A stretch of 64,000 bases of DNA from Trichobilharzia szidati. Its lineage: Eukaryota; Platyhelminthes; Trematoda; Strigeidida; Schistosomatidae. Positions 21,191-63,827 of the stretch are shown in pieces; position 1 is the stretch's first letter; every line of letters begins with the position of its first letter. The DNA lies in contig OX235279.1 of assembly GCA_944472155.2 (NCBI GenBank), forward strand, positions 150,434,199 through 150,498,198, read 5' to 3'. The position numbers were made by a program, and so were the translations under genes. Under the pieces are notes generated by a model. That model searched no databases. It had not been told where the DNA came from and worked only from the letters and a program-made list of their open reading frames with translations.

Positions 21191-21208
21191 TCTAACTAAT
21201 TTTTAGTT

Positions 21209-31416: not shown

Positions 31417-31423
31417 GAGAGCA

Positions 31424-31565
31424 CCTCATATCATCTCGATTTACTGTCTCTATTTTGCATTTCTTCTACTTTCTTCTCTTCCTTTGTGTGCTACATGGAG
31501 TGTGGCAACTTGAACTGCTGCACATCGGTGCAAAGTTCTATGTTGAAACCAGTCAGTTAGTCAGC
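31424..31565 (+). repeat. Dispersed repeat R4, arm B
   Basis: Inverted counterpart of 63670-63827; contains 'gagtgtggcaacttgaactg' and ends in 'accagtcagttagtcagcca'. Similar to the copy at 15760-15915. Confidence 0.55.
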
Positions 31566-31593
31566 CATCGCAATGTAAGACTAATAACAGCTT

Positions 31594-31860
31594 TTATCTT
31601 AATCCATACGAATTCAATCTCCCCTGAACTTTAATTATCTCAAGTGATTTCAACACATCAATTTCATGATTGCTATCAATTAACCGGTGGACAATCGCAC
31701 CTAAGCTTCGGAAAATATCTACTTTCCAGTAAGCACTTTTCAATAATGGCGAATTCGTATCTCTCCTTCTTTCAAAGATTTTCACCGAGGTAGAACAATT
31801 TCCACACCAAACCTCTTTTATAGCTTATTAGACCAAAACAACTGCGATTCGGATACAGTC
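31594..31860 (-). pseudogene. Penelope-like endonuclease fragment, arm B (internally deleted)
   Basis: Minus-strand reading ends GAIVHRLIDSNHEIDVLKSL, the same as in arm C at 63550-63650, but about 320 bp that in arm C hold the TYIGRRRG motif are missing at about 31709. It is a shortened copy of the 63040-63660 feature. Confidence 0.6.
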
Positions 31861-33031
31861 AATTGCAGAATTCTTTACGACGAATATACCTTTGTATATT
31901 TCGACTTTTCATCTGTAGGCCACTCATACAACTCCTTTTTATTATTGTATAAACAATTCTCGTAGTCACGTAACCTATTTCACTAACTAATATAACCTTT
32001 CTAGTTAGACTTTGTTTCTATCCAAAGTATTGAACCCTGGTCCTTTCTCCAAGAACATTTGTCTAATTATACCATAAATAGTTATCACTCTTAACGCCTA
32101 ACAATTAACTACTAACATCATTCCGGACTCATGTTACTTAGACTTTTTATCAATAACTCATGGCCGACACGAAAAAGCAGTGTTTAACCATTTTTAAAAC
32201 TTAAATTTTCGTTTTGTTAAGCTTATAGGCAGTTGAAAAGAACCCATGGAATAATAAAAATAAGCTCATTATCCTGTTACACTTCTTGCTCCTGCTTGTT
32301 AAAGGAAGCTTCTCTGATGAAGTCTTCTTATGATACTGACACTTCTCATTCGAAGCACAGAAACACACAACTGAGCTGTAATTATTCCGACTGAAGAGTT
32401 AATATTGAAAAACGAATATTTCGACTTATTTTGTTTAAATATTAAGCTTACATATATACTCCAGTGCTCCACTGTGGGGAAACTGAATGAAAACGAAATA
32501 AGTCTCATGGAGTCCTTCCAACACCAATCAAACTTAGAACTGATAGAACTAACGAAATCAAACAAAGATGCACAGACTTCACGAAAAGTTCGCCGAACAA
32601 CGTGGAGACTCAACTCAATAGCTAATCCGCCTGCTACTACTAAACACCTTGTTCAATTTACACATTCAAAATTGCCAAATGCATATGTTATATGAAACGA
32701 ATAAGAAGGTTTTGCAGTCGTCTTCAGTTAACATCATATACCCAATGCCCAACTTTTTTCCAAACTGTTAAAAGTAAACTTGGTCTGGACATATATGTGT
32801 CTAGTAGCATAAAACACATGGACATTAGTAAATTTATCAGAATAAGGATCCATACAGAGATAATGCAAAATTACAATCACGTTAGGAATAAAGTGGAAAA
32901 CTTATCATCAAAAATACTAGATAATAGGCATGTCAAGCACTAGCGAGTAAAAGTAAATCAATTACAATAGAAATAGAAATCATATATACACATTACGTAT
33001 AACATCATTCCCAGGGTTATACGTAAGTTCA

Positions 33032-36000
33032 TCAACTGCTCGTAGATGTCACAGAGTCCACACCCTGTGTACATGACGAAGATACAGGTGCTCCTGACCC
33101 ATTCACAGAAGCACTTGTGACTCCACTTGAAACAGACGTTCCACAAATCTCAACACTAGATGCAGCAGTAGTCACAGCAGAACCAACCGTTGTAGTTGAT
33201 GGAAGGCAGGCGAGATTACCGGTAACGGCCTGTAGTGTAGTAGCTTCCATGGAACCAACACCAGAAACCGTTGTACTGGCAGTACCTTCAGATGCAACTG
33301 TTGGAGCAGACAGCCGACGAATCAACTGTGTTAGCCATCGTCTAGTAGCCACATCATTCTCCAGCAAACCACTGAACGTGCCATCTATGAGCTGTTGTGG
33401 CAAACATGTTCGAAGAGCATCACGCGCTCTGAAATAAAAATCGGAGGTAAAAATTATCATATTTAGACATCGATAACGTCTGAGTTATTACTTAACAGTT
33501 TAAAGTGATAGTTATCTGTAAGACACATAATATTTATCTGGTCTGTCTTATCAACATTTGGTTTTGAGACAAAAACTCTCGAAAGATTGCTGAGCTGCAT
33601 TAAATTTGAAAGTAAGAGATAAGTGGCTACTAAAACGTACTATAGAAGTTGCTTTCTATGTGATATGAATAACAATAACATTCTGCTCCCAGTAGGATAC
33701 TAGTAATTTTTCTGCGCCATTATTACCAATTATTTCGCGAAGTTTATTACTTCTGTTATTTTTGTTATAACGGAGTGTTACTGATTTGTTGGTTGCTACC
33801 CATTCTGACTACATTACGTCTCCAGACAACTGATCACTAGGAAAATGTCCGCCACACTGAGTAGACACACAGAAGTCAGATTCAATTGAGACAACTGCGG
33901 CAAAAACAACAACCACAACAGGACGAAACAGCTGTCTAGTACTCCCAGGTGTTCCAATGCTTCTCTAACCAATGTCAGTGCATGACGAAATCCTGCAACC
34001 AATCAAATATCCCAAATATGTTGTTACTTCCTTCCTGATATACTACTTATATCGGATTATAAGTAGCACTCACCACACTCGCCCCCTCATTATAAAGTCT
34101 CTCCTGTAACCGCCTTGATCGCCGCACAGACGTTTCATCCTGCTGCTCTTCTGGTACCTTGTCTTGACATTCTTCTCTCCATCTTTGTAGCAGACTGGCG
34201 TTTACTCTTTTCTCTTTATCTCCTCTCTTTATTGTGTACACTGGACCGCGTCTCGATGTGACCACATATGGTCCCTCCCACTTCGGCAGAAGCTTTCCTG
34301 ATCCTGGTCCACTGCCGGTAGTATACTTTCGTTCTCTACATTTCACCTGGTCACCTACTTCAAACGGCTTCCAAGCTTTGATTTGTTTCTTGCCATAATT
34401 TTCGATGTCTATCTTGCGCTTCTCTTGTATATTCTGAATAGCTTGTTTGGCCAGTACGCACTTTGGCTCACTAGGTCGTATGTTCGTGCAACTCCTGTAT
34501 GAGCTAGTTGGTGGCATTCTTGAATGACACCACGACGAAGGCTTTTTGGTATCACTGCAACCCAGCTACCATCACTGTCTTTCCAAGTTAAGACGCCGGC
34601 AGCGTTTAGTTTGAGTCTATGTTTTTGCTGCAGTAGCATCTTTAACTCTCTATTCTCTGCTGCCATTTCAATTTCTTTCCCTTCACGTATCATCTGAATG
34701 ACTGTCTTAAGAGTAGGATCCGACTTCTGGTGGTGAACAAGTTGTAAGGGATCTTGCTCCAAAGCGTTTACTGCATACGCTACCTCTGGTAGTTCAGTCT
34801 CATTATCTGACCTCGACAAATAGTCAGCTATTACATTTTCTTTTCCTGGAATATGTCCAATCGTGAAGTCATACTCTTGTAGGCGTAACATCCATCGTGA
34901 TAACTTCCCTCGTGGATCCCGTGCTGTTTTCAACCACTGAAGAGGTTTGTGGTCGGTCTCAATGTGGAATCGGCGGCCGATCAGATATGGTCTCCATTTT
35001 TCTAGTGCCCAAACAATGGCTTAACACTCCTTTTCCACCGTAGAATACTTCTGTTCTGCAAGTGTCAACACACGGCTAGCGTATTCAACAACCCCATCCG
35101 TTTGTCTTAAAACAGCACCTATACCATAATCACTGGCGTCTGTCGAAACTGTGAACTGCTTCCCCGGCGCTGGCAGTTTCAACGTCATCTGTTGACCATC
35201 TAACAGCCCTTTAATTCGCTCAAACGTTTGCTGTGCCTCTTCCGTCCACATGAATTTTGCGTTACTCAGCAACGTATATAGTGGTTTTGCTATCTCATTG
35301 AAATTCTTGACAAATCGGCTGTAGAATGCCGCTCTTCCCAAAAACTGTCTCAGCTTTCGCTTTGAATTTGGCACTTCGCTGGTTTTGACCGTCAGGATTT
35401 TCTCCGGCAATGGCCGTATTTCACCATTTCCCACTTTGTAACCCAGGAGGACAACCGTGTTTTTAGCTATTTGGGACTTGTTCTTATTAATCCGCAGTCC
35501 AAAGTCATCAATTCTCTTAAGGATAGCTTCGATGTGGTCTATATGGTCGCTTTCCGTCTCACTATACACCACCAAGTCATCTCCATATACTTCTACGTTC
35601 TTCAGACCCTTCAGTAATAAGGTCATTAATCTTCTGAATGTAAATGGGGCACCTACCAATCCAAATGGCATTCGTTCTTCAATGTAAGCATAACCCTGCT
35701 TGTTAGGCTGAAAACACTTACCGCGAATCATCCGAAAGACGTAGGTAGCACCGAATCACGTGTTTCAAAAGGCGTAATGACTGCTCTCTAGCCAAGTCGA
35801 TCACAATTTTTTCCAAAACAGTAGCTACGTGAGCGAAACGCTCATAAGTTTGACAGATGTACGCCAGGCCGACTTCATCCAAAAGAAGCTTCTGCATAAT
35901 GAAGGTCGCCACCTAGATTGTTTACAAGGATATAGAGGAATGAATTAGTGACGTGGAGTTTGCAGGTGGTATAACCAATGTGAAATAGTCACATACATAA

Positions 36001-39000
36001 TGATGTCGTCTAATGTGAACTTCACGTTTTTACATTTCTAACAAAATAAGTACTTTGTAAAACAAATACCTAGGCAACCAAATCATGTGATCAACAGTTA
36101 ACTCTATCCTAATTGGATTTTGAATCACATCACTCCTGTATAATAAATCAGAACTGCAAACGACAAATGTCATTTCATCTGCTGTTTAAATGATATTCAC
36201 AGAACTGTGGGAAATTTCCAGGATACAACAGTATTTTGCATAAACAACAGTGAAACACTAACAGAAGATGTCCAATTTCTTCCATTCGAATTGTAAAGTC
36301 TAGTCTGAATTGCTACACTGATATATTAATGATTTTCCTAAATGCACTTCAACACATGATTGACTGGAAGACGCAAAACTCACAGTTCTACTCAGTTCAC
36401 TTCCTGACTCCATGATTACCAGACAAAGAGGTATAATTTCCGACCCCAGGAGAAATGCTATGACCTCTGGTTCATCCGTCTGAAAGGGAAAAGAAATTGT
36501 AGATTAAGGAAATAGTGCTTCTGAATTACTAATGTTTCTAACCACTACTCATCACGGGAATGCTGTATAGCTAAAACAGTCTGATTCATTCCAAACACTG
36601 GGTGCTTCTAAAGAACCACTAATAACACGTTTTGAGTGACCAGTGTTTCGGGTTTCACCTATTTTTTTACATGACGCTTTCGTCTTTCATATCAACATTT
36701 TTGGTTCACACTAAAGCGATTCTAATTTAAATGAGTGATTACCAATCATATTCTACAAATTCTTACTAACTTATCCAATCACTGTATCAACGATTTGGTC
36801 TAAATATCATATCACTTTTGCACCCGTCCTTACCGAAATGGATTTAACACGAAAAGACACCATTTCCAATCACATGAAGCAGTAAACCTATGCTGTAAAA
36901 CAGCGAGAGAGCAGACTAAAATAAACTCTGTGGTCACTACCTGTTAACAGGTTGTTTTCAAAACTCATTCTTTACACCAGAATACCTCTGATGTTGCATA
37001 GCCAAATCGTGTGTCGAGTCATTGCATAGACATCCGAACTTCAGGATATCAGCTGACCAGCTTTGATAGTCCAATTTATAATCTATCAAATAAACTGCAT
37101 TAACTTCATTTCATGATTTACACCTGTAGACTGCTAAATATTATGGTAGTTATCTCAGAAAATCCACAACAGTAAAGAAAGTATTTCAACATCACAGACA
37201 AAATTTTCTACCAAACATAGAGTTAACGTTCAGACAGAAAGTTTGTTCCTGATAATTAACTGTCATGTTTAAAACGCGACTGTTATTTAAATGAACACAA
37301 GAATACAGTCGATTCGATCTCGAAACTGCACATGTGGATACAAGCAATTCCATATTAATTCGCCTGCTAGATATATCATATAATAATTGATACCATGGAC
37401 AATAAATTGTGTTCGAAACGTCACCCAGTAAATGCTCAAGTATGTGACATATCTAATGAACAAATTAATATGGAACTACCTATGGATAGTCCAACCTAAC
37501 TTTACAAATCAGATGGGCTCTAGATATCCATTATTTTACTGATGCTTTATCATTTAACAAGCTACTTTGATAGTTGTCACAAAAGACGGGACTCATGTGA
37601 AGACATTTGGCAGTTCACAATCTCTCAGAACATTTTTACAACTGCATAGCATGAATACTCTTAGTATCATACGATTTCTATCTAATATTCATAAGCGCAC
37701 TCGTGAATGCGACGTTCAAACTATACGCCAACAGGGATTACTTGCTCTTACTGAAAATAAGTTGAGACAACTACTGCTTTTCAACAACCAACATGTACTG
37801 GTAAGCTAATGGAATGGCTATGGCTTTGACACTGACCTACTTCTGTTACCCTTCCTCACAGTGTAGAAACATTACTGAAACCATAAATAGAAGACTGTAC
37901 GTTACTGCATGTATGTTATGTGCGGAAATACAAACCGTGTATCCAAAATATTTGAAAAGCTAAGTGAAGCTCACCTCTGTATCAATTTCGCAGTAGATTA
38001 TAAACGTGATGATAAGTTTAGTTTCCAGGATAATAACATAAAATGAAGACGTGGTAGCAAAGTTGGGGAAATAACATATGCAACTGACATGTGAACCAGT
38101 CAGTAATTCGACTGTCACAGTTTTCTCCTTTTCAATTACATTCGGAACCCGGTGGAAAAGCTTCTCAGCAAACCAAATCCGGGTAGGGCTCACTTCTTTT
38201 GAAAAGAATATAGTGCAGGAGAATTCGAGCACCGTGCTGGAGTATAGTTTGAAATATTATCAGTAAATAAATAACGCTATTATTGTGTTTCGCCAAGTAA
38301 ACTAATAAATCGGTCTTATTGTAGGAAAGCCCAAGAAGATAAAGATCAAAACTCACACCTATAACTGACGAATAGGAGCCATTTTCACTTATTTCGTTAC
38401 GTGATCCGAAAGTTGTGGACTTACTTTCCAAAAGTAAAGCTTTGAAGCTAGAAGTACAAAAGATAGTCAAATTTCAACGAGCTTTTGTAAATCAATCAAG
38501 CACTAACCAGATGATACAAGTTAACTTTTTAAAGAATATTTCATCAATTCACAAAAACGTTCGCAAATATGATGTTTTGAAGTGCATAAGAAACAACGCT
38601 CACTTTAACAAGTGCACCAATCACTCCAAGGCTAGTCAACCTTAAGTACTCGAATGGACGCGTTTGATTATTTGTATTCAAAAACGTATACAGGTACAGA
38701 GGTATGTTGGCCTTCAGAAACTCCTTCCTGGTTTCTGGATGCGATGCCAAGCACTGCATAAGAGCGAGTGCATTACAAACACGATTAGATTGATGGGCCT
38801 ATAAAGGCAAACATGGATACATTGATGGGTTATTTTACATATGGTACAATCACAGATACAGCTAAATACACAAATGTCACAAAAATATGAATAAATGTAA
38901 GTGTATCAATTGAAAGAGTTTTTTATCACGCAAACTATCTATGCGAAAAATTAAAACAAAATCAACTCCATGCATGAAAGCCAAATGAATACACAACCTC

Positions 39001-39922
39001 GTGAAATCTATAGTGACTTCACTCAAAGAATAGAAGCAATGACATTTGAACCTGTAACCTAATGGGAGAATCTGAAGTTGACTGAATTTCCAACGTAGAA
39101 CTTTACGCAAAAGTGCAGCAGTTCGAGTCCTCACACTTCTCAGAAGCACACGTAAAAGTTGACAAACATACCCAGAGTTCTGCTCAGGAGGTATCATGTC
39201 AGTCTTCAATTAAATCAGACCCTGGTACCAAAACATTTCCCACGACACTGCAATCCACCAAACTTACACCCACCAGTCTACCAATTGTTAAATCGAAGAA
39301 TGACAGACAAGAAAGGTTTCCATCGGTTAGTATAACACACTTTCTCGGCAATTCCGTTACACCTTAAGATTGCCAAAGAACCTATGATTAGATCAGTGTT
39401 TCTTTCTTTGTTATGCTCCTTTTGATGTCTAATAAACAATGCCATCGTTATCCGTAACTTAAAACCTGACCTGACCGATCGAAATCGCCCGTTTAGACCA
39501 CATTTCCTATGTCCATTCTCCAACTGGGAGAGTTTTACATATTCGATCACAACGGTATTTGGCCAATGGTTTAAACAGGATTTGCTGCTTATCTTACCAC
39601 ATATGCATATATGTATATATACGGCAAAAATGACAACTTACGCTCAAGTTGGGAGGATTTATGTAGGGATATATTGAGCATATTTCTTGAAGCAATGCAG
39701 CAATCGAACCAAATGTATGCCAGAGGATTGGAGCGAGTTCTGGCACAGATTCCCTCATTTTGCTTTATAAATGGACTCAACAGTTAATAATACAACATAC
39801 CAGAGCTCTAAAAGTGCACTTTCTCGGGATTCCATATTTGTTAGCGAAGACACCAGCTTGCGAACACTCTCCATATCAGAAGCCGACGTCCCAGTTTGAG
39901 GAGCATTAGACGGCGTAGACAT
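33032..39922 (-). CDS. CNOT9: CNOT9 (CCR4-NOT complex subunit 9), copy B, six exons
   Basis: Exons on the minus strand: 39922-39801, 39762-39642, 38798-38604, 36479-36384, 35912-35722 and 33428-33032; together 1122 nt, 373 residues plus stop. CNOT9 (RQCD1, yeast Caf40) is the armadillo-repeat subunit of the CCR4-NOT complex that shortens mRNA poly(A) tails and binds GW182/TNRC6-type and NOT1 partners. Family motifs in order: [131 protein letters not shown] and TKRW-like [12 protein letters not shown]. The family is about 300 residues; here a Ser/Thr-rich tail of about 75 residues is added. All introns begin GT and end AG; the first is 38 bp. Intron 5 contains a gypsy fragment and R3. A 2450-bp transposon ends 63 bp upstream of the ATG, so expression of this copy may be altered. 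Confidence 0.9.
33486..34017 (-). repeat. R3 and head-less SINE in CNOT9 intron 5, arm B
   Basis: Inverted counterpart of 60913-61444. R3 ends at 'ttacttaacagtttaaagtg' about 50 bp before exon 6; the SINE remnant is at 33922-34000 and joins R3 at the 'caacaggacgaaacagctgt' point. Lies between the gypsy fragment and exon 6. Confidence 0.75.
34047..35720 (-). pseudogene. Ty3/gypsy pol fragment in CNOT9 intron 5, arm B
   Basis: Inverted copy of 59210-60883. Reverse transcriptase, RNase H and parts of integrase are recognisable (see the arm C copy). Here an additional TAA at about 35022-35020 splits the frame after STVEKEC, where arm C reads [11 protein letters not shown]. The integrase catalytic core is deleted in both arms. 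The fragment has no LTR on either side. Confidence 0.8.
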
Positions 39923-39985
39923 TGTAATACAACAACCGACTGTCACACCAGCAAGATGATCACGACAGCTCGACGAGAGGTTTGT

Positions 39986-42435
39986 GACAGAGGATAGCGG
40001 CACAAATGGCTTATGGAGAGGCTGAGCACTTGAAGGTCACTTACGCACACTGTGATTGGTAGACTTTCCTTTGCGCAAACGTTGCGGCTAATACGTGTCG
40101 TACGTTACTGAGGCGGGCTTTGAAATAACAATAATAAAAGCGAATAGACATTATATTTTTTAGCTTAAGGGAACAAGTTAACATGTGCATAAATTTCACA
40201 GATGTAATAAGCATTTGATCCACTTACAAGGAGAATATTACTGGCGAACTTAATCAAAGGAGTATAAAGTTTGAAGATTTTATCTCCTTCAGTTGGTTGT
40301 AACGGATAGATAAGTCACTTGTATAATATTTGCTTTTTACAGAAAAGAAAATTTGACAGGTGATTTTAAAGTTACACAATTCCTGAAATCTATCGTGGAA
40401 TATATAGAAGACTAATCTGTAGAATTTCTCCAACTCTGTGATTGTTCCCTCCCTTGTTCACATATTCAGTGTAGCTAAGATAAGGAATCGTTCACCAGAG
40501 GTAAGATGAATTTGTCTGATATGTATCCATCCTCAGATATTTCTCAATACGGTCGAAGGAACACAATGTCAGTCTTTGCTTGAAAAGTTCTCATCCAGTT
40601 TCTCCGAACGGATCTGGTGGTGACGAAAACTGCAAAGACTGGTGGAATATCACTACCAACGGGGACAAACTGATACAGATGTTGCGGACAGAGTGTTTGG
40701 TGAACTTATGATGACTAGTCATCATAGCTATGATGCAGCTATAAAAACTCTACAACTGTGATTTTTTTCACTGGATTGTTATTCACTCTTTTTAGTGTAG
40801 ATATGTACTCTTTGATTCTGAGTTATTTTTAACTTCATTGATTGTTGGTTCCTTGCAAATATATGCATTTATGTCGACTAACTTTGTCTCTTGTACTTAT
40901 CATGTTGAGGACATTGCAGAGTTAACGAGAACGAAAGGCGACGTAGTAATACTTATGTGAAATGCGTCAGTCTTAAACTGTTATTATTTCCTCAATGCGT
41001 CATTAAGCCTTGCGTAAAGTGTTTCAGTTACGTTTAGTCCGGTTGCGTATAATATTATTATTCACGATTGTGAAGAAAGTGGCCGTAAAAAATATGTTGG
41101 TACTGTGATAACGAAACATAACCTAGCAAACGTAGGTTCTATCCGTACACGACTTGTATTGGTAGTCTAGGCACTTCAAGTACACTCTGCAACGCACATC
41201 ATATTTATCACAAATAGTCTGTTATTCTTATGTTGCGTTTAACACCACAATCTCAAATGAAATCGTTAGGTAATAAAGAGATAACTACATTACTCTTCTT
41301 GTGTTATCATTTCCTATCAATAAGCTCTTACATGATCACATCAACGCTTAGACTCGTGCATTAGTTGACTACGTCACTAAACTTCATTGATTATTTCGTT
41401 ATCATAAAATACTGTAACACATTAGATAGGCTTTTGTTGTGCATATCGCCTGTTTAAGGTTTCCTAGCGAGCGCAATTACTCAAAAGCAATAGCAGTACC
41501 CCATCGTGACCAAATTCAACCACGTGTAAATATGACATTTTACGAATATTACGTCTTCTACACTGGCATCACTTCGTTACTCGACAAACAGTAAGTATTA
41601 ATAGTGTATGAATGGAGTGAAAAATTTTCAAAACAATATTTATTTCGATAAATACATTCGTAATATCACAAATATTTCATCATTTACACAAATATTATCC
41701 TTTTTAATCCTATTAGAATGTCTAAATGTATTTTGTGATTGAGGAAGTAAATACCATGATCTGGAAATTTAAAAAATTAGTGAGAAAATGATGGGTTAAA
41801 TAAATAACTTAACACGTAGTACCTACCAGTTAAACGACTGTCTCTTCAACGTTATCTGACGAAATAACCAACTCAGTTTCCTTTCTTCCCAGCCAGCAAT
41901 TTTTTTGGGCGCATTGCAGACTTTTTGGGGCAGACTTCGGGGGCATTGCAGACTTTTTGGGGCAGACTTAGGGTGCATTGCAGACTTTTTGGGGCAGTCT
42001 TCGGGGCGAATACTCAAGAACGGCAATGCGCCCAAAGGTTTTTGCCCCGAAGAAATGCTAGCTGGGTTACTGTGAGATTTGGTAAAGATCATGACATCAT
42101 ACCTACCTCGATATTTAAACATCTCATCATTTAAGTAAAAGACACTAAAAAATTGGAATTATTTGGCATTTTATATCATAATTGACATTTTCCGACGAAT
42201 TCTGACATTTCTTATGCGCCTCAGCATGTCATTTCGATGAAAGGACAACATCTTTAAACACACTGAAAACGACCGTTATTCTCAATTTTTACACGATTTT
42301 TCGTTAAAATACGGTATGTAAACCGTATATCTGTCGAAAAAACACTAAAAACAACGTAGAATAGCCCAAACACAACACCACGATAACACCTTACAAACTG
42401 CAGCAATCAGCTGATTTGTGCCGCTATCCTCTGCC
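39986..42435. mobile_element. 2450-bp DNA transposon with 22-bp TIRs and 9-bp target duplication
   Basis: The ends 39986-40007 and 42414-42435 are inverted repeats of 22 bp with one mismatch (outermost bases GACAGAGGATAGCGG at the left, GGCAGAGGATAGCGG read inward from the right). GAGGTTTGT flanks both sides (39977-39985 and 42436-42444). Arm C has the uninterrupted site, one GAGGTTTGT (complement at 54945-54953), with identical flanks, and the arm length difference is 2459, exactly element plus duplication. A 9-bp duplication is typical of Mutator-like (and some Merlin) transposons, but I see no transposase: frames inside are short, the longest (41823-42122 minus) being a by-product of a tandem repeat. 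I infer a non-autonomous element of uncertain superfamily. Confidence 0.9.
41881..42070. repeat. Three-unit 32-bp minisatellite inside a hairpin-forming segment
   Basis: Units start at 41911, 41943 and 41975 ('gcattgcagactttttgggg' plus 12 bp). They lie between perfect 13-bp inverted repeats, TTGGGCGCATTGC at 41905-41917 and GCAATGCGCCCAA at 42023-42035, and the pairing continues imperfectly outward ('cccagccagcaa' with 'gctagctggg'). The whole sits near the right end of the DNA transposon. Confidence 0.8.
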
Positions 42436-42500
42436 GAGGTTTGTACAGTGACAAAATTCACACAGCGCGGGTCAAGTACACACAAACGAAATAGTCCAGT

Positions 42501-51786: not shown

Positions 51787-54700
51787 CTCAATATCATTGA
51801 TGACATATCATAATACTGACGGAAACCTGGCTAACCCGTACAGTGGTAGACAGCGAAGTCAGTGTAAATGATATGGTCCCAGTCAGGCGAGATAGGGATC
51901 TGAAAGAAGGAGTTGGAGTCGCCATATACGTCGACAAACAGCTCAGATGTGTCCATGCAATGAACCCTCCCCTCATTGAGCTCCCTGACTCCATATGGTG
52001 CCATTTCACCGTTGGGTACTGTAAATATCTAGTGGGCAGCATTTATAGATCACCTTCATGTGGAGCAGACCACAACCAGGTACTGCTGAATGCAATTTCG
52101 GCGACACAAGACATGGGATATGATCAAATTGTCATAGCTGGAGACTTCAGTGCCCCATCTCTTAACTTGATGACGGGATATGCCCATGATAGATTTGATC
52201 GAAATCTGCTGCATACCATCAGGGAGGCCGGATTCACTGAAAATGTCAGAATGGATACTAGATGGGGCCCAGATGGGAAGTCTTCTAGCCTGGATTATGT
52301 GCTCACGAGTGACCAGCTACTAGTGGAAAACGTTCAGATCACGACTCCCATAGGTAGTAGTGACCACGCGGTCATAACATTCGACATAGTCCTCCGCGAG
52401 CGTTTACAGTGGGACAATACACAGCCCTATCTGTGTTATAACAAAGCCAATCACACCGAAATGCGAAGACTTTTGTCTGAAGCAAATTGGCCAAAAAATT
52501 GGACAGAGCTCACAGTAGAAGAACACTGGGGAGTGGTAAAGGAGATCATTCACCAGGCGGTCTCAGACACTGTTCCTTTAGTCACACCAAAAACTAGAAA
52601 GCAACGTTCATGGCTAAAATGGGGGACACAACGCCTTCTACAGGCGAAGCGAAAAGCCTGGTTTGCGTGGCGAGTATCGAAGAGTCAACCCGAACATGAA
52701 GTGTACCTCGAACTCAGGAATCGATGTAACATACGAGTCCGGAGTGATAGAAAGACATTTCAGAGAAACCTCGCCAATAAGCTTCTCGTGAACCCCAAAA
52801 GCCTATACAGGTTTATTTATGTCTGAAAGAAAACCGACCAATCAGGGGGCTTGCAATCTAGTGGGCTCTGATGGGAAATCTCTTACTAGTCTTGAAATGG
52901 CAGAGACATTCAGTCTAGCCTTTCACAGGCAACTGAACAGTAACGAGGATTTTACCCCCACAAAACATCAAGATTACAATGCAAGACCAACGTGCGAAAA
53001 CCTGCTGGGTACATTTCAAATTACCCCGGCTATGGTACTCGTAAAATTGGGAAAGTTGGCTTCGGGAAAGTCTGCAGGTTGCGATGCCATAAGACCATCC
53101 GTCCTGAAGCAGTGTTCAGAAAGTCTCTGCCAACCTCTAAGTGATCTGTTTCAACACTCCTTTGATGTAGGGAAACTTCCATGTGAATGGAAACGAGCCA
53201 TCCTATCCCCTATCTTCAAGGGTGGTGACCGGCAGAACGCCACCAGTTACAGACCAGTTGCGCTACTCCCAGTGATATCGAAGATATTGGAAAGTCCCAT
53301 TGACGACCACATGAGAAAATACTTCGACGGGACTAACCTACTCCATGAAGCACAGCACGATTTCAGGAGGGGAAGATCCTGTGTGACGAATCTACGAAAT
53401 AAGCAAGGCGGGTGCTTCTGGAGCACTTCTCGCATGGCTGAAACATTATTTAGGCGAGAGAGAATTCTGCACCAAAGTCAACCGCATCCGATCATCCTGG
53501 CACACCTCGGCATCAGGGGTTCCTCAGGGTTCTATCTTAGGGCCGTTGATGTTTTTGACTTTTATCAACGACCTGCCCTGTCAACTGAACTGCTCTGAGC
53601 TTCTCTACGCTGATGACGTAAAGATTTGGAGAGCAATAAACTCATCGGAAGACTCCGACAGATTGCAGGCTGACCTGCAAACTCTGGGAGACTGGGCTCT
53701 GGCTAACGGAATGTCTTTCAACTTAAAGAAGTGCAAAGTAGTGCAACTTCATTCCGGCAGGTCACAGAGTGCAAATTACACCCTTGGTGGCCAGAACTTG
53801 AGTTGTGTGCCATCAAAACGCGACCTAGGTCTTATTTTAACAGAAAAGCTAGACACCAGTGTAAATTACACGAGGGACGTCGCCAAAGCTTACGCTACTT
53901 TACACTTTATGCATAGGCAGCTGGGAGCTCTTACTCCTGAACTATTCTTAACGTTGTATACGACATACGTGAGGCCACTCCTTGAGGTGCACAACATAAT
54001 TGATCCTCCGCTACTCAAAAGGGATGCTAACATTCTAGAAAGTGTCCAGAGACGAGCGACAAAATGGGTGATCGGCCTCCGCAACAAATCATATGAGGAA
54101 AGACTGAAGAAATTAAGTCTTTTCACACTTATTTACCGTAGTCACAGGGGAGACCTCATCACCGTCTATAAGATCTTAAATGACCAGGCCCACCCTAATA
54201 AAAGCATCCTGCCATTAAGTGATTATAGGCTTCCACGAGGTAACCCGCTAAGAATAGCACACCAGAGACCAAAGACTCGAGTGCGTCCACATTTCTTCTC
54301 GCTTTGAGTTTGCCGTCTCTGGAACGCCTTACCGGCGGCCGTAACTACAGCGCCATCTGTGGAGACTTTTAAGCGGAAGCTGGACAATCATGCAGAAATG
54401 CATGGTTGTGTCTCAATGGCTTATCCTCTTAAAACTTGAAACCACATTGTCAGTGGATAAGCATACAAGCTAAATCCCCACGAGCCGTCCTGTCTTCTCC
54501 CACTGTACCGACTACTCTATCTTTTCTTTCTTCCTTTATTATTTCACCTTTATTATTTCACTTATCTCAACCTATATTATCTACACTACAACCTATTATT
54601 ATTATTACTATTCTACTTTTATGACTACACCGAATGACCAACGGGTGTTAGGTCAAACTCCATTCACGGCAGCAGCTGAGTCCTAACATACTGCACACTA

Positions 54701-54888
54701 CAAACCACAATCTTGGCCAATCCTCGCACCACTCCTCTTGGAGTCTACCAGAGCTAAAGCTGTCGAGTGGCGGGATTTACTACGCATAAGTTCACCGAAG
54801 ATCTGGAACCTCTACCTTACAATCAAGAAGAGAGCTCGAAGAAATCACTGGTTTATACAAGCTCGTAATCAGGATATTGGATATTGGA
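51787..54888 (+). pseudogene. CR1-like LINE (CR1-B element 2), arm C
   Basis: Starts directly after the tail of element 1 and is 5' truncated within the endonuclease. 51843-52826: endonuclease with VSVNDMVPVRRDRD, GSIYRSPSCGADHN, IVIAGDFSAPSLN, MDTRWGPDGKSSSLDYVLT and SSDHAVITFDI. 52819-53400: RT start with ASGKSAGCDAIRPSVLKQC, WKRAILSPIFKGGDRQN, SYRPVALLPVISKILES and AQHDFRRGRSCVTNLR. At about 53400 roughly 60 codons (the KAFD motif block) are missing and the frame shifts; the sequence continues in the frame at 53546-54307 with FLTFINDLPCQLNCSELLYA and DDVKIWRAI, then the C-terminal RRATKWVIGLRNKSYEERL. The 3' tail ends in GATATTG repeats at 54873-54888, 120 bp before the CNOT9 start codon. 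Confidence 0.85.
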
Positions 54889-55007
54889 ACTGGACTATTT
54901 CGTTTGTGTGTACTTGACCCGCGCTGTGTGAATTTTGTCACTGTACAAACCTCTCGTCGAGCTGTCGTGATCATCTTGCTGGTGTGACAGTCGGTTGTTG
55001 TATTACA

Positions 55008-58000
55008 ATGTCTACGCCGTCTAATGCTCCTCAAACTGGGACGTCGGCTTCTGATATGGAGAGTGTTCGCAAGCTGGTGTCTTCGCTAACAAATATGGAA
55101 TCCCGAGAAAGTGCACTTTTAGAGCTCTGGTATGTTGTATTATTAACTGTTGAGTCCATTTATAAAGCAAAATGAGGGAATCTGTGCCAGAACTCGCTCC
55201 AATCCTCTGGCATACATTTGGTTCGATTGCTGCATTGCTTCAAGAAATATGCTCAATATATCCCTACATAAATCCTCCCAACTTGAGCGTAAGTTGTCAT
55301 TTTTGCCGTATATATACATATATGCATATGTGGTAAGATAAGCAGCAAATCCTGTTTAAACCATTGGCCAAATACCGTTGTGATCGAATATGTAAAACTT
55401 TCCCAGTTGGAGAATGCACATGGGAAATGTGGTCTAAACGGGCGATTTCGATCGGTCAGGTCAGGTTTTAAGTTACGGATAACGATGGCATTGTTTATTA
55501 GACATCAAAAGGAGCATAACAAAGAAAGAAACACTGATCTAATCATAGGTTCTTTGGCAATCTTAAGGTGTAACGGAATTGCCGAGAAAGTGTGTTATAC
55601 TAACCGATGGAAACCTTTCTTGTCTGTCATTCTTCGATTTAACAATTGGTAGACTGGTGGGTGTAAGTTTGGTGGATTGCAGTGTCGTGGGAAATGTTTT
55701 GGTACCAGGGTCTGATTTAATTGAAGACTGACATGATACCTCCTGAGCAGAACTCTGGGTATGTTTGTCAACTTTTACGTGTGCTTCTGAGAAGTGTGAG
55801 GACTCGAACTGCTGCACTTTTGCGTAAAGTTCTACGTTGGAAATTCAGTCAACTTCAGATTCTCCCATTAGGTTACAGGTTCAAATGTCATTGCTTCTAT
55901 TCTTTGAGTGAAGTCACTATAGATTTCACGAGGTTGTGTATTCATTTGGCTTTCATGCATGGAGTTGATTTTGTTTTAATTTTTCGCATAGATAGTTTGC
56001 GTGATAAAAAACTCTTTCAATTGATATACTTGCATTTATTCATATTTTTGTGACATTTGTGTATTTAGCTGTATCTGTGATTGTACCATATGTAAAATAA
56101 CCCATCAATGTATCCATGTTTGCCTTTATAGGCCCATCAATCTAATCGTGTTTGTAATGCACTCGCTCTTATGCAGTGCTTGGCATCGCATCCAGAAACC
56201 AGGAAGGAGTTTCTGAAGGCCAACATACCTCTGTACCTGTATACGTTTTTGAATACAAATAATCAAACGCGTCCATTCGAGTACTTAAGGTTGAGTAGCC
56301 TTGGAGTGATTGGTGCACTTGTTAAAGTGAGCGTTGTTTCTTATGCACTTCAAAACATCATATTTGCGAACGTTTTTGTGAATTGATGAAATATTCTTTA
56401 AAAAGTTAACTTGTATCATCTGGTTAGTGCTTGATTGATTTACAAAAGCTCGTTGAAATTTGACTATCTTTTGTACTTCTAGCTTCAAAGCTTTACTTTT
56501 GGAAAGTAAGTCCACAACTTTCGGATCACGTAACGAAATAAGTGAAAATGGCTCCTATTCGTCAGTTATAGGTGTGAGTTTTGATCTTTATCTTCTTGGG
56601 CTTTCCTACAATAAGACCGATTTATTAGTTTACTTGGCGAAACACAATAATAGCGTTATTTATTTACTGATAATATTTCAAACTATACTCCAGCACGGTG
56701 CTCGAATTCTCCTGCACTATATTCTTTTCAAAAGAAGTGAGCCCTACCCGGATTTGGTTTGCTGAGAAGCTTTTCCACCGGGTTCCGAATGTAATTGAAA
56801 AGGAGAAAACTGTGACAGTCGAATTACTGACTGGTTCACATATCAGTTGCATATGTTATTTCCCCAACTTTGCTACCACGTCTTCATTTTATGTTATTAT
56901 CCTGGAAACTAAACTTATCATCACGTTTATAATCTACTGCGAAATTGATACAGAGGTGAGCTTCACTTAGCTTTTCAAATATTTTGGATACACGGTTTGT
57001 ATTTCCGCACATAACATACATGCAGTAACGTACAGTCTTCTATTTATGGTTTCAGTAATGTTTCTACACTGTGAGGAAGGGTAACAGAAGTAGGTCAGTG
57101 TCAAAGCCATAGCCATTCCATTAGCTTACCAGTACATGTTGGTTGTTGAAAAGCAGTAGTTGTCTCAACTTATTTTCAGTAAGAGCAAGTAATCCCTGTT
57201 GGCGTATAGTTTGAACGTCGCATTCACGAGTGCGCTTATGAATATTAGATAGAAATCGTATGATACTAAGAGTATTCATGCTATGCAGTTGTAAAAATGT
57301 TCCGAGAGATTGTGAACTGCCAAATGTCTTCACATGAGTCCCGTCTTTTGTGACAACTATCAAAGTAGCTTGTTAAATGATAAAGCATCAGTAAAATAAT
57401 GGATATCTAGAGCCCATCTGATTTGTAAAGTTAGGTTGGACTATCCATAGGTAGTTCCATATTAATTTGTTCATTAGATATGTCACATACTTGAGCATTT
57501 ACTGGGTGACGTTTCGAACACAATTTATTGTCCATGGTATCAATTATTATATGATATATCTAGCAGGCGAATTAATATGGAATTGCTTGTATCCACATGT
57601 GCAGTTTCGAGATCGAATCGACTGTATTCTTGTGTTCATTTAAATAACAGTCGCGTTTTAAACATGACAGTTAATTATCAGGAATAAACTTTCTGTCTGA
57701 ACGTTAACTCTATGTTTGGTAGAAAATTTTGTCTGTGATGTTGAAATACTTTCTTTACTGTTGTGGATTTTCTGAGATAACTACCATAATATTTAGCAGT
57801 CTACAGGTGTAAATCATGAAATGAAGTTAATGCAGTTTATTTGATAGATTATAAATTGGACTATCAAAGCTGGTCAGCTGATATCCTGAAGTTCGGATGT
57901 CTATGCAATGACTCGACACACGATTTGGCTATGCAACATCAGAGGTATTCTGGTGTAAAGAATGAGTTTTGAAAACAACCTGTTAACAGGTAGTGACCAC

Positions 58001-61000
58001 AGAGTTTATTTTAGTCTGCTCTCTCGCTGTTTTACAGCATAGGTTTACTGCTTCATGTGATTGGAAATGGTGTCTTTTCGTGTTAAATCCATTTCGGTAA
58101 GGACGGGTGCAAAAGTGATATGATATTTAGACCAAATCGTTGATACAGTGATTGGATAAGTTAATAAGAATTTGTAGAATATGATTGGTAATCACTCATT
58201 TAAATTAGAATCGCTTTAGTGTGAACCAAAAATGTTGATATGAAAGACGAAAGCGTCATGTAAAAAAATAGGTGAAACCCGAAACACTGGTCACTCAAAA
58301 CGTGTTATTAGTGGTTCTTTAGAAGCACCCAGTGTTTGGAATGAATCAGACTGTTTTAGCTATACAGCATTCCCGTGATGAGTAGTGGTTAGAAACATTA
58401 GTAATTCAGAAGCACTATTTCCTTAATCTACAATTTCTTTTCCCTTTCAGACGGATGAACCAGAGGTCATAGCATTTCTCCTGGGGTCGGAAATTATACC
58501 TCTTTGTCTGGTAATCATGGAGTCAGGAAGTGAACTGAGTAGAACTGTGAGTTTTGCGTCTTCCAGTCAATCATGTGTTGAAGTGCATTTAGGAAAATCA
58601 TTAATATATCAGTGTAGCAATTCAGACTAGACTTTACAATTCGAATGGAAGAAATTGGACATCTTCTGTTAGTGTTTCACTGTTGTTTATGCAAAATACT
58701 GTTGTATCCTGGAAATTTCCCACAGTTCTGTGAATATCATTTAAACAGCAGATGAAATGACATTTGTCGTTTGCAGTTCTGATTTATTATACAGGAGTGA
58801 TGTGATTCAAAATCCAATTAGGATAGAGTTAACTGTTGATCACATGATTTGGTTGCCTAGGTATTTGTTTTACAAAGTACTTATTTTGTTAGAAATGTAA
58901 AAACGTGAAGTTCACATTAGACGACATCATTATGTATGTGACTATTTCACATTGGTTATACCACCTGCAAACTCCACGTCACTAATTCATTCCTCTATAT
59001 CCTTGTAAACAATCTAGGTGGCGACCTTCATTATGCAGAAGCTTCTTTTGGATGAAGTCGGCCTGGCGTACATCTGTCAAACTTATGAGCGTTTCGCTCA
59101 CGTAGCTACTGTTTTGGAAAAAATTGTGATCGACTTGGCTAGAGAGCAGTCATTACGCCTTTTGAAACACGTGATTCGGTGCTACCTACGTCTTTCGGAT
59201 GATTCGCGGTAAGTGTTTTCAGCCTAACAAGCAGGGTTATGCTTACATTGAAGAACGAATGCCATTTGGATTGGTAGGTGCCCCATTTACATTCAGAAGA
59301 TTAATGACCTTATTACTGAAGGGTCTGAAGAACGTAGAAGTATATGGAGATGACTTGGTGGTGTATAGTGAGACGGAAAGCGACCATATAGACCACATCG
59401 AAGCTATCCTTAAGAGAATTGATGACTTTGGACTGCGGATTAATAAGAACAAGTCCCAAATAGCTAAAAACACGGTTGTCCTCCTGGGTTACAAAGTGGG
59501 AAATGGTGAAATACGGCCATTGCCGGAGAAAATCCTGACGGTCAAAACCAGCGAAGTGCCAAATTCAAAGCGAAAGCTGAGACAGTTTTTGGGAAGAGCG
59601 GCATTCTACAGCCGATTTGTCAAGAATTTCAATGAGATAGCAAAACCACTATATACGTTGCTGAGTAACGCAAAATTCATGTGGACGGAAGAGGCACAGC
59701 AAACGTTTGAGCGAATTAAAGGGCTGTTAGATGGTCAACAGATGACGTTGAAACTGCCAGCGCCGGGGAAGCAGTTCACAGTTTCGACAGACGCCAGTGA
59801 TTATGGTATAGGTGCTGTTTTAAGACAAACGGATGGGGTTGTTGAATACGCTAGCCGTGTGTTGACACTTGCAGAACAGAAGTATTCTACGGTGGAAAAG
59901 GAGTGTTTAGCCATTGTTTGGGCACTAGAAAAATGGAGACCATATCTGATCGGCCGCCGATTCCACATTGAGACCGACCACAAACCTCTTCAGTGGTTGA
60001 AAACAGCACGGGATCCACGAGGGAAGTTATCACGATGGATGTTACGCCTACAAGAGTATGACTTCACGATTGGACATATTCCAGGAAAAGAAAATGTAAT
60101 AGCTGACTATTTGTCGAGGTCAGATAATGAGACTGAACTACCAGAGGTAGCGTATGCAGTAAACGCTTTGGAGCAAGATCCCTTACAACTTGTTCACCAC
60201 CAGAAGTCGGATCCTACTCTTAAGACAGTCATTCAGATGATACGTGAAGGGAAAGAAATTGAAATGGCAGCAGAGAATAGAGAGTTAAAGATGCTACTGC
60301 AGCAAAAACATAGACTCAAACTAAACGCTGCCGGCGTCTTAACTTGGAAAGACAGTGATGGTAGCTGGGTTGCAGTGATACCAAAAAGCCTTCGTCGTGG
60401 GGTCATTCAAGAATGCCACCAACTAGCTCATACAGGAGTTGCACGAACATACGACCTAGTGAGCCAAAGTGCGTACTGGCCAAACAAGCTATTCAGAATA
60501 TACAAGAGAAGCGCAAGATAGACATCGAAAATTATGGCAAGAAACAAATCAAAGCTTGGAAGCCGTTTGAAGTAGGTGACCAGGTGAAATGTAGAGAACG
60601 AAAGTATACTACCGGCAGTGGACCAGGATCAGGAAAGCTTCTGCCGAAGTGGGAGGGACCATATGTGGTCACATCGAGACGCGGTCCAGTGTACACAATA
60701 AAGAGAGGAGATAAAGAGAAAAGAGTAAACGCCAGTCTGCTACAAAGATGGAGAGAAGAATGTCAAGACAAGGTACCAGAAGAGCAGCAGGATGAAACGT
60801 CTGTGCGGCGATCAAGGCGGTTACAGGAGAGACTTTATAATGAGGGGGCGAGTGTGGTGAGTGCTACTTATAATCCGATATAAGTAGTATATCAGGAAGG
60901 AAGTAACAACATATTTGGGATATTTGATTGGTTGCAGGATTTCGTCATGCACTGACATTGGTTAGAGAAGCACTGGAACACCTGGGAGTACTAGACAGCT

Positions 61001-61898
61001 GTTTCGTCCTGTTGTGGTTGTTGTTTTTGCCGCAGTCGTCTCAATTGAATCTGACTTCTGTGTGTCTACTCAGTGTGGCGGACATTTTCCTAGTGATCAG
61101 TTGTCTGGAGACGTAATGCAGTCAGAATGGGTAGCAACCAACAAATCAGTAACACTCCGTTATAACAAAGATAACAGAAGTAATAAACTTCGCGAAATAA
61201 TTGGTAATAATGGCGCAGAAAAATTACTAGTATCCTACTGGGAGCAGAATGTTATTGTTATTCATATCACATAGAAAACAACTTCTATAGTACGTTTTAG
61301 TAGCCACTTATCTCTTACTTTCAAATTTAATGCAGCTCAGCAATCTTTCGAGAGTTTTTGTCTCAAAACCAAATGTTGATAAGACAGACCAGATAAATAT
61401 TATGTGTCTTACAGATAACTATCACTTTAAACTGTTGAGTAATAACTCAGACGTTATCGATGTCTAAATATGATAATTTTTACCTCCGATTTTTATTTCA
61501 GAGCGCGTGATGCTCTTCGAACATGTTTGCCACAACAGCTCATAGATGGCACGTTCAGTGGTTTGCTGGAGAATGATGTGGCTACTAGACGATGGCTAAC
61601 ACAGTTGATTCGTCGGCTGTCTGCTCCAACAGTTGCATCTGAAGGTACTGCCAGTACAACGGTTTCTGGTGTTGGTTCCATGGAAGCTACTACACTACAG
61701 GCCGTTACCGGTAATCTCGCCTGCCTTCCATCAACTACAACGGTTGGTTCTGCTGTGACTACTGCTGCATCTAGTGTTGAGATTTGTGGAACGTCTGTTT
61801 CAAGTGGAGTCACAAGTGCTTCTGTGAATGGGTCAGGAGCACCTGTATCTTCGTCATGTACACAGGGTGTGGACTCTGTGACATCTACGAGCAGTTGA
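55008..61898 (+). CDS. CNOT9: CNOT9 (CCR4-NOT complex subunit 9), copy C, six exons
   Basis: Exons: 55008-55129, 55168-55288, 56132-56326, 58451-58546, 59018-59208 and 61502-61898 (1122 nt, 373 residues plus TGA). Start chosen at the ATG of [11 protein letters not shown] because the family N-terminus is short and no other ATG is in frame just upstream. Introns are 38, 843, 2124, 471 and 2293 bp, all GT-AG; codons split correctly at each junction (for example TG/C after RESALLEL and CG/A before [10 protein letters not shown]). Armadillo-repeat motifs match the family throughout, with one difference from copies A and [10 protein letters not shown] instead of RLTSLGVIG, the latter being the usual family sequence. 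The C-terminal tail after [12 protein letters not shown] is Ser/Thr/Val-rich ([22 protein letters not shown]). Intron 2 carries R4, intron 5 a gypsy fragment, SINE and R3. No promoter is evident; a LINE tail lies 120 bp upstream of the ATG. Confidence 0.92.
55785..55865 (+). repeat. R4-like segment in CNOT9 intron 2
   Basis: 'gaggactcgaactgctgcac' followed by 'gtaaagttctacgttggaaa' resembles R4 at 31490-31550 ('gtggcaacttgaactgctgc', 'caaagttctatgttgaaacc'). It is also present in copies A (21415-21490) and B (complement). It is therefore older than the duplications. Confidence 0.45.
59210..60895 (+). pseudogene. Ty3/gypsy pol fragment in CNOT9 intron 5, arm C
   Basis: Open frame from 59199 (starting inside exon 5, out of frame with CNOT9) to 60521. 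Domains: RT second half with [20 protein letters not shown] and FTFRRLM, catalytic [43 protein letters not shown]; RNase H with [40 protein letters not shown] and DHKPLQW; tether [15 protein letters not shown]; integrase zinc-binding region with [18 protein letters not shown]. After SAYWP the integrase DDE core is absent and the frame changes; 60490-60883 encodes the integrase C-terminal part ([32 protein letters not shown], a GPY-type module) and a basic tail. No protease, gag or LTRs. It is a 5'-truncated, internally deleted remnant that lies exactly at the exon 5 donor site. Confidence 0.85.
60913..61444 (+). repeat. Head-less SINE and R3 in CNOT9 intron 5, arm C
   Basis: 60913-61012 is the SINE remnant joined to R3 at 'gtttcgtcctgttgtggttg'; R3 runs to 'cactttaaactgttgagtaa' at about 61444. 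The remaining 57 bp to exon 6, with 'cctccgatttttatttcag', look like original intron sequence with the acceptor. Confidence 0.75.
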
Positions 61899-63039
61899 TG
61901 AACTTACGTATAACCCTGGGAATGATGTTATACGTAATGTGTATATATGATTTCTATTTCTATTGTAATTGATTTACTTTTACTCGCTAGTGCTTGACAT
62001 GCCTATTATCTAGTATTTTTGATGATAAGTTTTCCATTTTATTCCTAACGTGATTGTAATTTTGCATTATCTCTGTATGGATCCTTATTCTGATAAATTT
62101 ACTAATGTCCATGTGTTTTATGCTACTAGACACATATATGTCCAGACCAAGTTTACTTTTAACAGTTTGGAAAAAAGTTGGGCATTGGGTATATGATGTT
62201 AACTGAAGACGACTGCAAAACCTTCTTATTCGTTTCATATAACATATGCATTTGGCAATTTTGAATGTGTAAATTGAACAAGGTGTTTAGTAGTAGCAGG
62301 CGGATTAGCTATTGAGTTGAGTCTCCACGTTGTTCGGCGAACTTTTCGTGAAGTCTGTGCATCTTTGTTTGATTTCGTTAGTTCTATCAGTTCTAAGTTT
62401 GATTGGTGTTGGAAGGACTCCATGAGACTTATTTCGTTTTCATTCAGTTTCCCCACAGTGGAGCACTGGAGTATATATGTAAGCTTAATATTTAAACAAA
62501 ATAAGTCAAAATATTCGTTTTTCAATATTAACTCTTCAGTCGGAATAATTACAGCTCAGTTGTGTGTTTCTGTGCTTCGAATGAGAAGTGTCAGTATCAT
62601 AAGAAGACTTCATCAGAGAAGCTTCCTTTAACAAGCAGGAGCAAGAAGTGTAACAGGATAATGAGCTTATTTTTATTATTCCATGGGTTCTTTTCAACTG
62701 CCCATAAGCTTAACAAAACGAAAATTTAAGTTTTAAAAATGGTTAAACACTGCTTTTTTCGTGTCGGCCATAAGTTATTGATAAAAAGTCTAAGTAACAT
62801 GAGTCCGGAATGATGTTAGTAGTTAATTGTTAGGCGTTAAGAGTGATAACTATTTATGGTATAATTAGACAAATGTTCTTGGAGAAAGGACCAGGGTTCA
62901 ATACTTTGGATAGAAACAAAGTTTAACTAGAAAGGTTATATTAGTTAGTGAAATAGGTTACGTGACTACGAGAATTGTTTATACAATAATAAAAAGGAGT
63001 TGTATGAGTGGCCTACAGATGAAAAGTCGAAATATACAA

Positions 63040-63660
63040 AGGTATATTCGTCGTAAAGAATTCTGCAATTGACTGTATTCGAATCGCAGTTGTTTTGGTC
63101 TAATAAGCTATAAAAGAGGTTTGGTGTGGAAATTGTTCTACCTCGGTGAAAATCTTTGGAAGAAAGAGAGATACGAATTCGCCACTATTGAAAGGTGCTT
63201 ACTGGACAGTAGATATCTTCCGAAGCTAATTGATGAAAGCAAGAGAATTCCACATATTAAGGAGAATTTGATACAGTTGAGAAGAAACCGGTATTCCTAA
63301 AGCTTCGATTCCAAGGTAGTGGAGTAATTAAATATCGAATAAATGCTGCTCTCATATGGACTTATTCAGTTTCCAGGTTAGTCACAACTCACCGAATAAA
63401 TTGCTCACCGAGAATCTATAGTTGACAAGTCATCTTACGTCTAACTACACAAACCAATGTACATGGACGTGCAAAACACATACATAGGACGAAGAAGAGG
63501 AATTTGTGAACATATGTCTGAGCACATTCCAAGACACTTCCAAACGAAAGGTGCGATCGTCCACCGGTTAACTGATAGCAATCATGAAATTGATGTGTTG
63601 AAATCACTTGAGATAATTAAAGTTCAGGGGAGTTTCAATTCGTATGGATTAAGATAAAAG
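63040..63660 (+). pseudogene. Penelope-like endonuclease remnant, arm C
   Basis: 63457-63657 reads TYIGRRRGICEHMSEHIPRH, then AIVHRLTDSNHEIDVLKSLE and IIKVQGSFNSYGLR. The YIGR...EHIP...H..D.NHEID pattern fits the GIY-YIG endonuclease of Penelope-like elements. Upstream, 63110-63260 has YLGENLWKKERYEFATIERC in another frame. There is no RT. It differs from the family at 25740-28130. Confidence 0.6.
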
Positions 63661-63669
63661 CTGTTATTA

Positions 63670-63827
63670 GTCTTACCTTGCGATGGCTGACTGACTGACT
63701 GGTTTCGACATAGAACTTTGCACCGATGTGCAGCAGTTCAAGTTGCCACACTCCATGTAGCACACAAAGCAAGGGAAGAAAGTAGAAGAAATGCAAAATA
63801 GAGACAGTAAACAGAGATGATATGAGG
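63670..63827 (-). repeat. Dispersed repeat R4, arm C
   Basis: Inverted form of 31424-31565; contains the complement of 'gagtgtggcaacttgaactg'. It ends where homology between the arms ends. Confidence 0.55.

Follow-up and report, generated by a model that had tools for sequence, protein, structure and literature searches.

A probable young inverted duplication of CNOT9 within a local gene cluster of Trichobilharzia szidati

Are two mirror-image copies of the gene CNOT9, found in a 64-kb stretch of the Trichobilharzia szidati genome, a real duplication, two haplotypes joined during assembly, or an amplification linked to sex? CNOT9 is expected to be dosage sensitive. It has been termed an extremely conserved component of CCR4-NOT, under the name Caf40, in the accessible text of PMC8774992. 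Self-comparison of the window (the whole 64-kb stretch analyzed), together with gene models, pointed to the first of these answers. The locus is probably a real, young inverted segmental duplication within a locally amplified CNOT9 cluster, and its arms have probably undergone gene conversion.

The inverted matches were defined by self-comparison of the window. The outermost block, 31424-31702/63549-63827, had 96.1% identity (coordinate sum 95251, E-value 9e-128). It was followed inward by 31704-39990/54941-63227 (99.6%, sum 94931), 42436-43838/53551-54953 (99.8%, sum 97389), and 43837-47133/49618-52914 (99.7%, sum 96751), each with an E-value of 0. With E-values of 0 or 9e-128, chance was therefore ruled out as an explanation. 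The constant sums reported in an earlier note on this DNA were 94930, 97389, and 96751. The left arm occupied 31424..47133 on the minus strand and the right arm 49618..63827 on the plus strand, each about 14-16 kb in size and each carrying CNOT9. Between them lay a spacer of 2.5 kb without N (47134..49617), to which sequence comparison assigned the 5' part of a long interspersed nuclear element (LINE), here LINE B. Near the end of the spacer, a 95-bp LINE piece (49421-49515) matched 47114-47208 at 95%. The right arm ended 173 bp before the end of the window, and those 173 bp had no match elsewhere in the window. Long inverted arms, high identity, and unlike outer flanks, of which the right one measured 173 bp, were all found, as in an inverted segmental duplication. 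The sole N run in the window (12053-12550) was located outside the palindrome, and no N was present at any arm junction. The locus is most likely a palindromic segmental duplication, a known kind of structure made more interesting by its gene and by the faster change of CNOT9 in the four Trichobilharzia proteins seen.

The CNOT9 exons were located by tblastn, and their edges were set by splice sites. The left gene (33032..39922, minus strand) consisted of exons 39922-39801, 39762-39642, 38798-38604, 36479-36384, 35912-35722, and 33428-33032. The right gene (55008..61898, plus strand) consisted of exons 55008-55129, 55168-55288, 56132-56326, 58451-58546, 59018-59208, and 61502-61898. Both copies therefore had six exons, all five introns of each were GT-AG, and each contained a complete frame of 373 codons, which bore out the earlier claim that every splice site and the full reading frame were retained. 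The coding sequences differed at one of 1,122 bases, and the resulting T136S was the sole difference between the two 373-residue proteins. The left protein was 100% identical to the T. szidati protein P0001. The CNOT9 protein matched the Pfam family Rcd1 (PF04078) at 1.3e-115 over profile positions 1-259 of 260, which represents a full-length domain, and solved CNOT9 chains were also matched (e.g., 4ct6_B at 5.1e-125). Since both genes are predicted to be able to encode full-length CNOT9, a raised dose of CNOT9 or diverged forms of it would be expected. Together with the self-comparison, these gene models supported a gene-bearing inverted duplication around a 2.5-kb spacer in a member of the schistosome family, as had been proposed.

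Two further pieces of CNOT9 were found in the window. The third, partial copy (21208..25544, plus strand; self-comparison and splice sites) contained exons 3-5 (21761-21955, 24080-24175, and 24647-24837) with their splice sites kept, and exons 1, 2, and 6 were absent. It was present in two stretches, 21208-24884, with 99.8% identity to each arm, and 25013-25544, with 98.3-99.4%. Relative to the left CNOT9 exons it showed one change, which was silent and located in exon 5. Past exon 5 (24838-25013), 47 bases resembled the arms and included the apparent start of a Gypsy fragment, followed by 128 bp that matched neither arm. The third copy may derive from a copy that already bore the Gypsy fragment. 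A 627-bp repeat at 13676-14302 also recurred in the third copy (25105-25731) and, in a shorter form, in intron 5 of both arms. The fourth piece (30833..31420, minus strand; sequence comparison) comprised the 3' half of exon 6 and the 3' flank, formed a direct repeat of 32625-33215, and adjoined the outer end of the left arm. The 591-bp direct repeat 30833-31420/32625-33215 was also considered as a pair of long terminal repeats, and this was rejected, as it is the CNOT9 3' end. The window thus held two intact mirror-image copies and two broken pieces of CNOT9 within 43 kb. Of the earlier description of two complete inverted genes, the intact pair was retained; a simple pair was not, given the two fragments and at least one further CNOT9 protein outside the window. 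CNOT9 here has the look of a young cluster whose rearrangement is still under way, and not of a single gene.

The arms differed by several private insertions and deletions. A DNA transposon of 2,450 bp was present in the left arm only (39986..42435). It had 20-bp perfect terminal inverted repeats (39988-40007 and 42414-42433) and a 9-bp target duplication, GAGGTTTGT, and the empty site was intact in the right arm. All features of a cut-and-paste DNA transposon, namely terminal inverted repeats, target-site duplication, and an empty site, were found for the left insertion. Its longest listed open frame was 111 residues, which fits a non-autonomous element. The 9-bp target duplication is, we presume, compatible with both the Merlin and the MULE superfamilies. 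The transposon lay 63 bp upstream of the left CNOT9 start codon. The reading of this left-only 2.4 kb as a promoter lost from the right gene was considered and rejected, as the segment is a transposon inserted on the left whose empty site survives in the right arm. From the comparison of the arms, the right arm is the older state for the transposon site, with LINE A ending about 120 bp upstream of the start codon.

LINE A encoded endonuclease and reverse transcriptase. In the right arm, where it was longer (51804..54884, plus strand; frames and Pfam), its 3' end lay at that distance of about 120 bp from the CNOT9 start codon. In the left arm (42505..44947, minus strand; frames, with Pfam on the right-arm counterpart), an internal deletion removed about 638 bp that are present on the right around 52914-53552, corresponding to the difference between the sums 97389 and 96751. 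Near the outer end, 1 base in the left arm corresponded to 321 in the right arm (63228-63548). Intron 5 of both CNOT9 genes contained a Gypsy-type pol fragment. The right fragment (59175..60521, plus strand) encoded reverse transcriptase, RNase H, and part of an integrase according to Pfam. The left one (34409..35755, minus strand; Pfam on the right-arm counterpart) contained two frames, the upstream of which ran in from exon 5.

The divergence between the arms was not uniform along their length. Overall, 54 substitutions were counted in 13,259 aligned bases, divided into 37/12,911 (0.29%) in the inner part and 17/348 (4.9%) at the outer end. A change-point analysis placed the boundary at left position 31772, so that the divergent outer end of the left arm covered 31424..31772. 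The log-likelihood gain was 29.6, compared to at most 7.0 in 200 shuffles, and a similar split (17/352 vs 37/12,907) gave a Fisher p of 2e-14. This step fits arms that were homogenized inside while the edge was left to drift. Furthermore, residues 32 and 136 of the protein occurred in all four combinations: T32 with S136 in P0002, a second T. szidati CNOT9 protein, S32/T136 in the left copy, S32/S136 in the right copy, and T32/T136 in the outgroups. Such a pattern fits what is expected from conversion between copies.

A three-way comparison was performed over 3,677 bp shared by the left arm, the right arm, and the third copy. Private differences numbered 5 in the left arm, 2 in the right arm, and 4 in the third copy, and no site was left unassigned. 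Pairwise, left and right differed at 7 sites, right and third at 6, and left and third at 9. Therefore, the arms were not clearly a closer pair with each other than with the third copy.

The alternative named in the earlier note was an assembly artefact, in which two haplotypes of one CNOT9 locus were joined head to head through repeated LINE sequence. Several observations suit this explanation and weigh against a real, gene-converted duplication. The inner arm identity of 99.6-99.8% would suit alleles, the inner divergence of 0.29% is also plausible as an allelic level, and a private transposon insertion and deletions are ordinary between alleles. The inner boundary lies within a LINE, a likely place for a misjoin. 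The distance between the left arm and the third copy (9) exceeded that between the arms (7), by two sites only. Inside the arms, no significant clustering of substitutions per kb was detected, as the maximum of 6 per kb was reached in 59% of 5,000 samples. The segment with 4.9% divergence at the outer end may owe its difference to replacement by another copy of the repeat and not to an escape from conversion, and one recurrent mutation can also give the four-combination pattern.

However, the structure of the junctions stood against a joining of haplotypes. In addition to the absence of N at the arm junctions, only 4 bp were shared at the junction 49617/49618 (an ATCG microhomology at 49618). 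An overlap assembler would probably need reads that span the junction to make a join with so short an overlap. The third copy is a truncated paralogue set in different flanks, and its distances from the arms (6 and 9 differences) were similar to the distance between the arms (7). Homology ended at both outer ends, unlike in two haplotypes sharing flanks, with the right side represented by only 173 bp. The drop in divergence along the arm, from 4.9% to 0.29%, was a further point against it. The haplotype explanation was thus weakened by the gap-free junctions, the 4-bp overlap, and the third copy, and we consider it unlikely, yet still to be taken seriously. A long read with a missed adapter was rejected as the source of the palindrome, given the 2.5-kb spacer and the 54/13,259 substitutions and large indels between the arms.

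For the duplication preferred here, a possible course of events can be proposed. The unit LINE B, LINE A, CNOT9, and 3' flank was found as a mirror-image pair, and parts of it recurred at two further places. Inverted copying of this unit may have occurred by a template switch or a break-repair event with its endpoint inside LINE B, at the 4-bp ATCG microhomology, and the partial CNOT9 copies may have arisen from further rearrangement. The arms would then have been kept alike by gene conversion ending near 31772. After the duplication, the left arm would have gained the DNA transposon just upstream of the gene and lost part of the LINE. The locus is also a compact record of cluster building by transposons and inverted duplication in flukes.

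CNOT9 copies beyond the window were known through annotated proteins alone. A protein search gave 3,780 matches, and the best 120 were considered, each representing a 90% cluster and many being unnamed. The T. szidati protein P0001 (cluster of 6 sequences) was on a contig of 179,022,751 bp. P0002 (97%, 337 residues, annotated as partial, cluster of 2) was likewise on a contig of 179,022,751 bp. All four tested P0002-specific peptides were absent from the window in six frames, and the matching window peptides were present; therefore, at least one more CNOT9 gene lies outside the window. T. regenti had two annotated CNOT9 proteins, P0003 and P0007, so that more than one was annotated in both Trichobilharzia species with proteins seen (T. 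szidati and T. regenti). In P0007, the CNOT9 part gave way near residue 262 to an unrelated sequence of transmembrane appearance; this is probably an error of the gene model, or else a rearrangement truly fused the two. When the C-terminal tail (residues 284-373) was used as the query, three proteins were found, P0001, P0003, and P0002. No further Trichobilharzia-named entry was found among the best 120 of 3,780 matches, and an unlisted, unnamed, or unannotated slow CNOT9 copy in this genus is possible.

The rate of CNOT9 change was compared using relative-rate tests of four Trichobilharzia proteins with six outgroups against S. mattheei, giving 24 tests that were neither independent nor corrected. 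In all 24, more changes were found on the Trichobilharzia side, with p < 0.05 in 21. This level was missed by P0001 when P0014 served as outgroup and by P0003 and P0007 when P0049 did. In all 12 tests that used a trematode outgroup (P0006, P0008, or P0010), p was below 0.001. When Calicophoron (P0006) served as outgroup, 17 changes within residues 12-281 were private to the left copy and 0 to S. mattheei (p 3.7e-5). With the same outgroup, ten changes were common to all four Trichobilharzia proteins (S12T, V30M, L53I, C58F, A70S, L95M, R126Q, K177R, D212E, and H217D).

A CNOT9 tree of 11 entries, with four of its eight inner branches left open, gave a length of 0.23 for the Trichobilharzia stem, 0.027 for the S. 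mattheei tip, and 0.14 for the tip of a shortened S. japonicum model. The three T. szidati entries were grouped at 100/99 and the two T. regenti proteins at 93/87, just under the mark for firm support. If the T. regenti grouping holds, each species would have its own duplicates, through separate duplication or concerted evolution.

Conservation was also examined at 153 positions that were at least 95% conserved among 115 other entries, the comparison proteins themselves being among those 115. Departures numbered 4 in the left copy, 5 in the right copy, 6 in P0002, 4 in P0003, and 6 in P0007. Among the comparison proteins, P0004, P0006, and P0010 showed 0, P0008 showed 1, and P0017, whose start is differently modelled, showed 2. 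As a counter-result, P0011 (Fasciolopsis) showed 4 of 153 departures, equal to the left copy, and had the longest tip in the tree (0.67). Fast or poorly modelled CNOT9 is therefore not confined to Trichobilharzia. In these comparisons, CNOT9 has changed more in all four Trichobilharzia proteins than in S. mattheei; CNOT9 alone was compared, and this may be a genus-wide rate. If true, a genus in which CNOT9 has been duplicated and partly broken, with faster change in each copy seen, would offer a natural experiment on the tolerance of this subunit.

The earlier note had also suggested a W-linked or otherwise sex-specific amplification. According to this explanation, CNOT9 would have been amplified on the W or a non-recombining part of the Z and kept intact by arm-to-arm conversion. 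The palindrome structure, the conversion-like divergence step, and the presence of two CNOT9 proteins on a very large 179-Mb contig would agree with it. Another T. szidati contig, bearing a Gypsy protein match, measured 136,740,957 bp. However, palindromes also form on autosomes. Sex in Schistosoma is determined by a ZW system, a point in favor of sex linkage, and the S. haematobium ZW coordinates extend to 87,954,222 in the available text of PMC8846543. The S. mattheei CNOT9 contig of 48,524,730 bp is too short for a ZW chromosome of that size, which therefore suggests that CNOT9 is probably autosomal in Schistosoma. Furthermore, the main text of a paper on Schistosoma W genes, in which u2af2, uev, and ankhd1 are the three W-linked genes common to both species compared, contained neither 'CCR4' nor 'rcd1' (PMC8662593). 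A literature search on schistosomes and CNOT9 gave a sole match, which concerned bivalves, and no T. szidati genome or karyotype paper was present among the matches listed. No support was thus found for sex linkage, given the 48.5-Mb contig and the main text of the W-gene paper, and we regard it as very improbable.

Human Y palindromes carry intact genes in both arms, as at the T. szidati CNOT9 locus. As far as the accessible text describes them, sex-chromosome palindromes of the human Y (PMC3723533) and of willow (PMC7023750) also resemble this locus in having arms more than 99% identical with signs of conversion-like homogenization. The T. szidati locus differs from them in its large private arm indels and in the partial copies beside the palindrome. 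Another parallel is the Drosophila gene Zeus, also called Rcd-1r. This copy of Caf40, the CNOT9 orthologue, arose by retroposition, diverged fast, and took on male reproductive roles, and the likeness, from the part of PMC8774992 available, consists of a duplicate of a very conserved CCR4-NOT subunit followed by fast change. In contrast to Zeus, which is retroposed and whose parent is conserved in the same account (PMC8774992), the T. szidati copies are DNA-level duplicates in a cluster with all five introns. Moreover, no slowly changing Trichobilharzia copy was present among the CNOT9 proteins listed. If true, this would be another case of CNOT9 duplication and divergence beside Zeus.

A gene-family expansion by segmental duplication in a schistosome is also described for S. 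mansoni in the accessible text of PMC10900676, where inter-chromosomal duplications of at least 20 kb had distances of 3.29-46.25, after removal of intra-chromosomal, sex-specific, and <20-kb pairs. In T. szidati the duplication is local and inverted, with arms of about 14-16 kb and an inner divergence of 0.29%; it falls outside the set counted there, and the two are not directly comparable. From the analysis as a whole, a broader picture could be drawn, in which Trichobilharzia CNOT9 would form a fast-changing, gene-converting family of multiple inverted copies on a single large chromosome, with no slow standard copy left and with a germline- or sex-linked role like that of Zeus or ampliconic Y/W genes. 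We consider this quite unlikely as a whole.

For the remainder of the window, host genes were surveyed by eye in frames of at least 100 residues in 1-34000, at least 30 residues in 36000-41500, and at least 200 residues elsewhere; Pfam was run on CNOT9 and seven element frames only. CNOT9 was the only host gene recognized by eye among the surveyed frames. The window was rich in transposable elements, including LINE endonuclease and reverse-transcriptase frames and the Gypsy pol in CNOT9 intron 5. A frame at 26238-26981 (minus strand) had a weak reverse-transcriptase match of 25.2 bits, below the Pfam cut-off of 29.6; we take it to resemble a Penelope-type element. The 498-base N run at 12053-12550 lay beside a frame that read, by eye, like reverse transcriptase. 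A Type I hammerhead ribozyme was detected at 14381-14425 on the plus strand (Rfam RF00163, 38.9 bits vs a gathering score of 34), 78 bp from the 627-bp repeat at 13676-14302.

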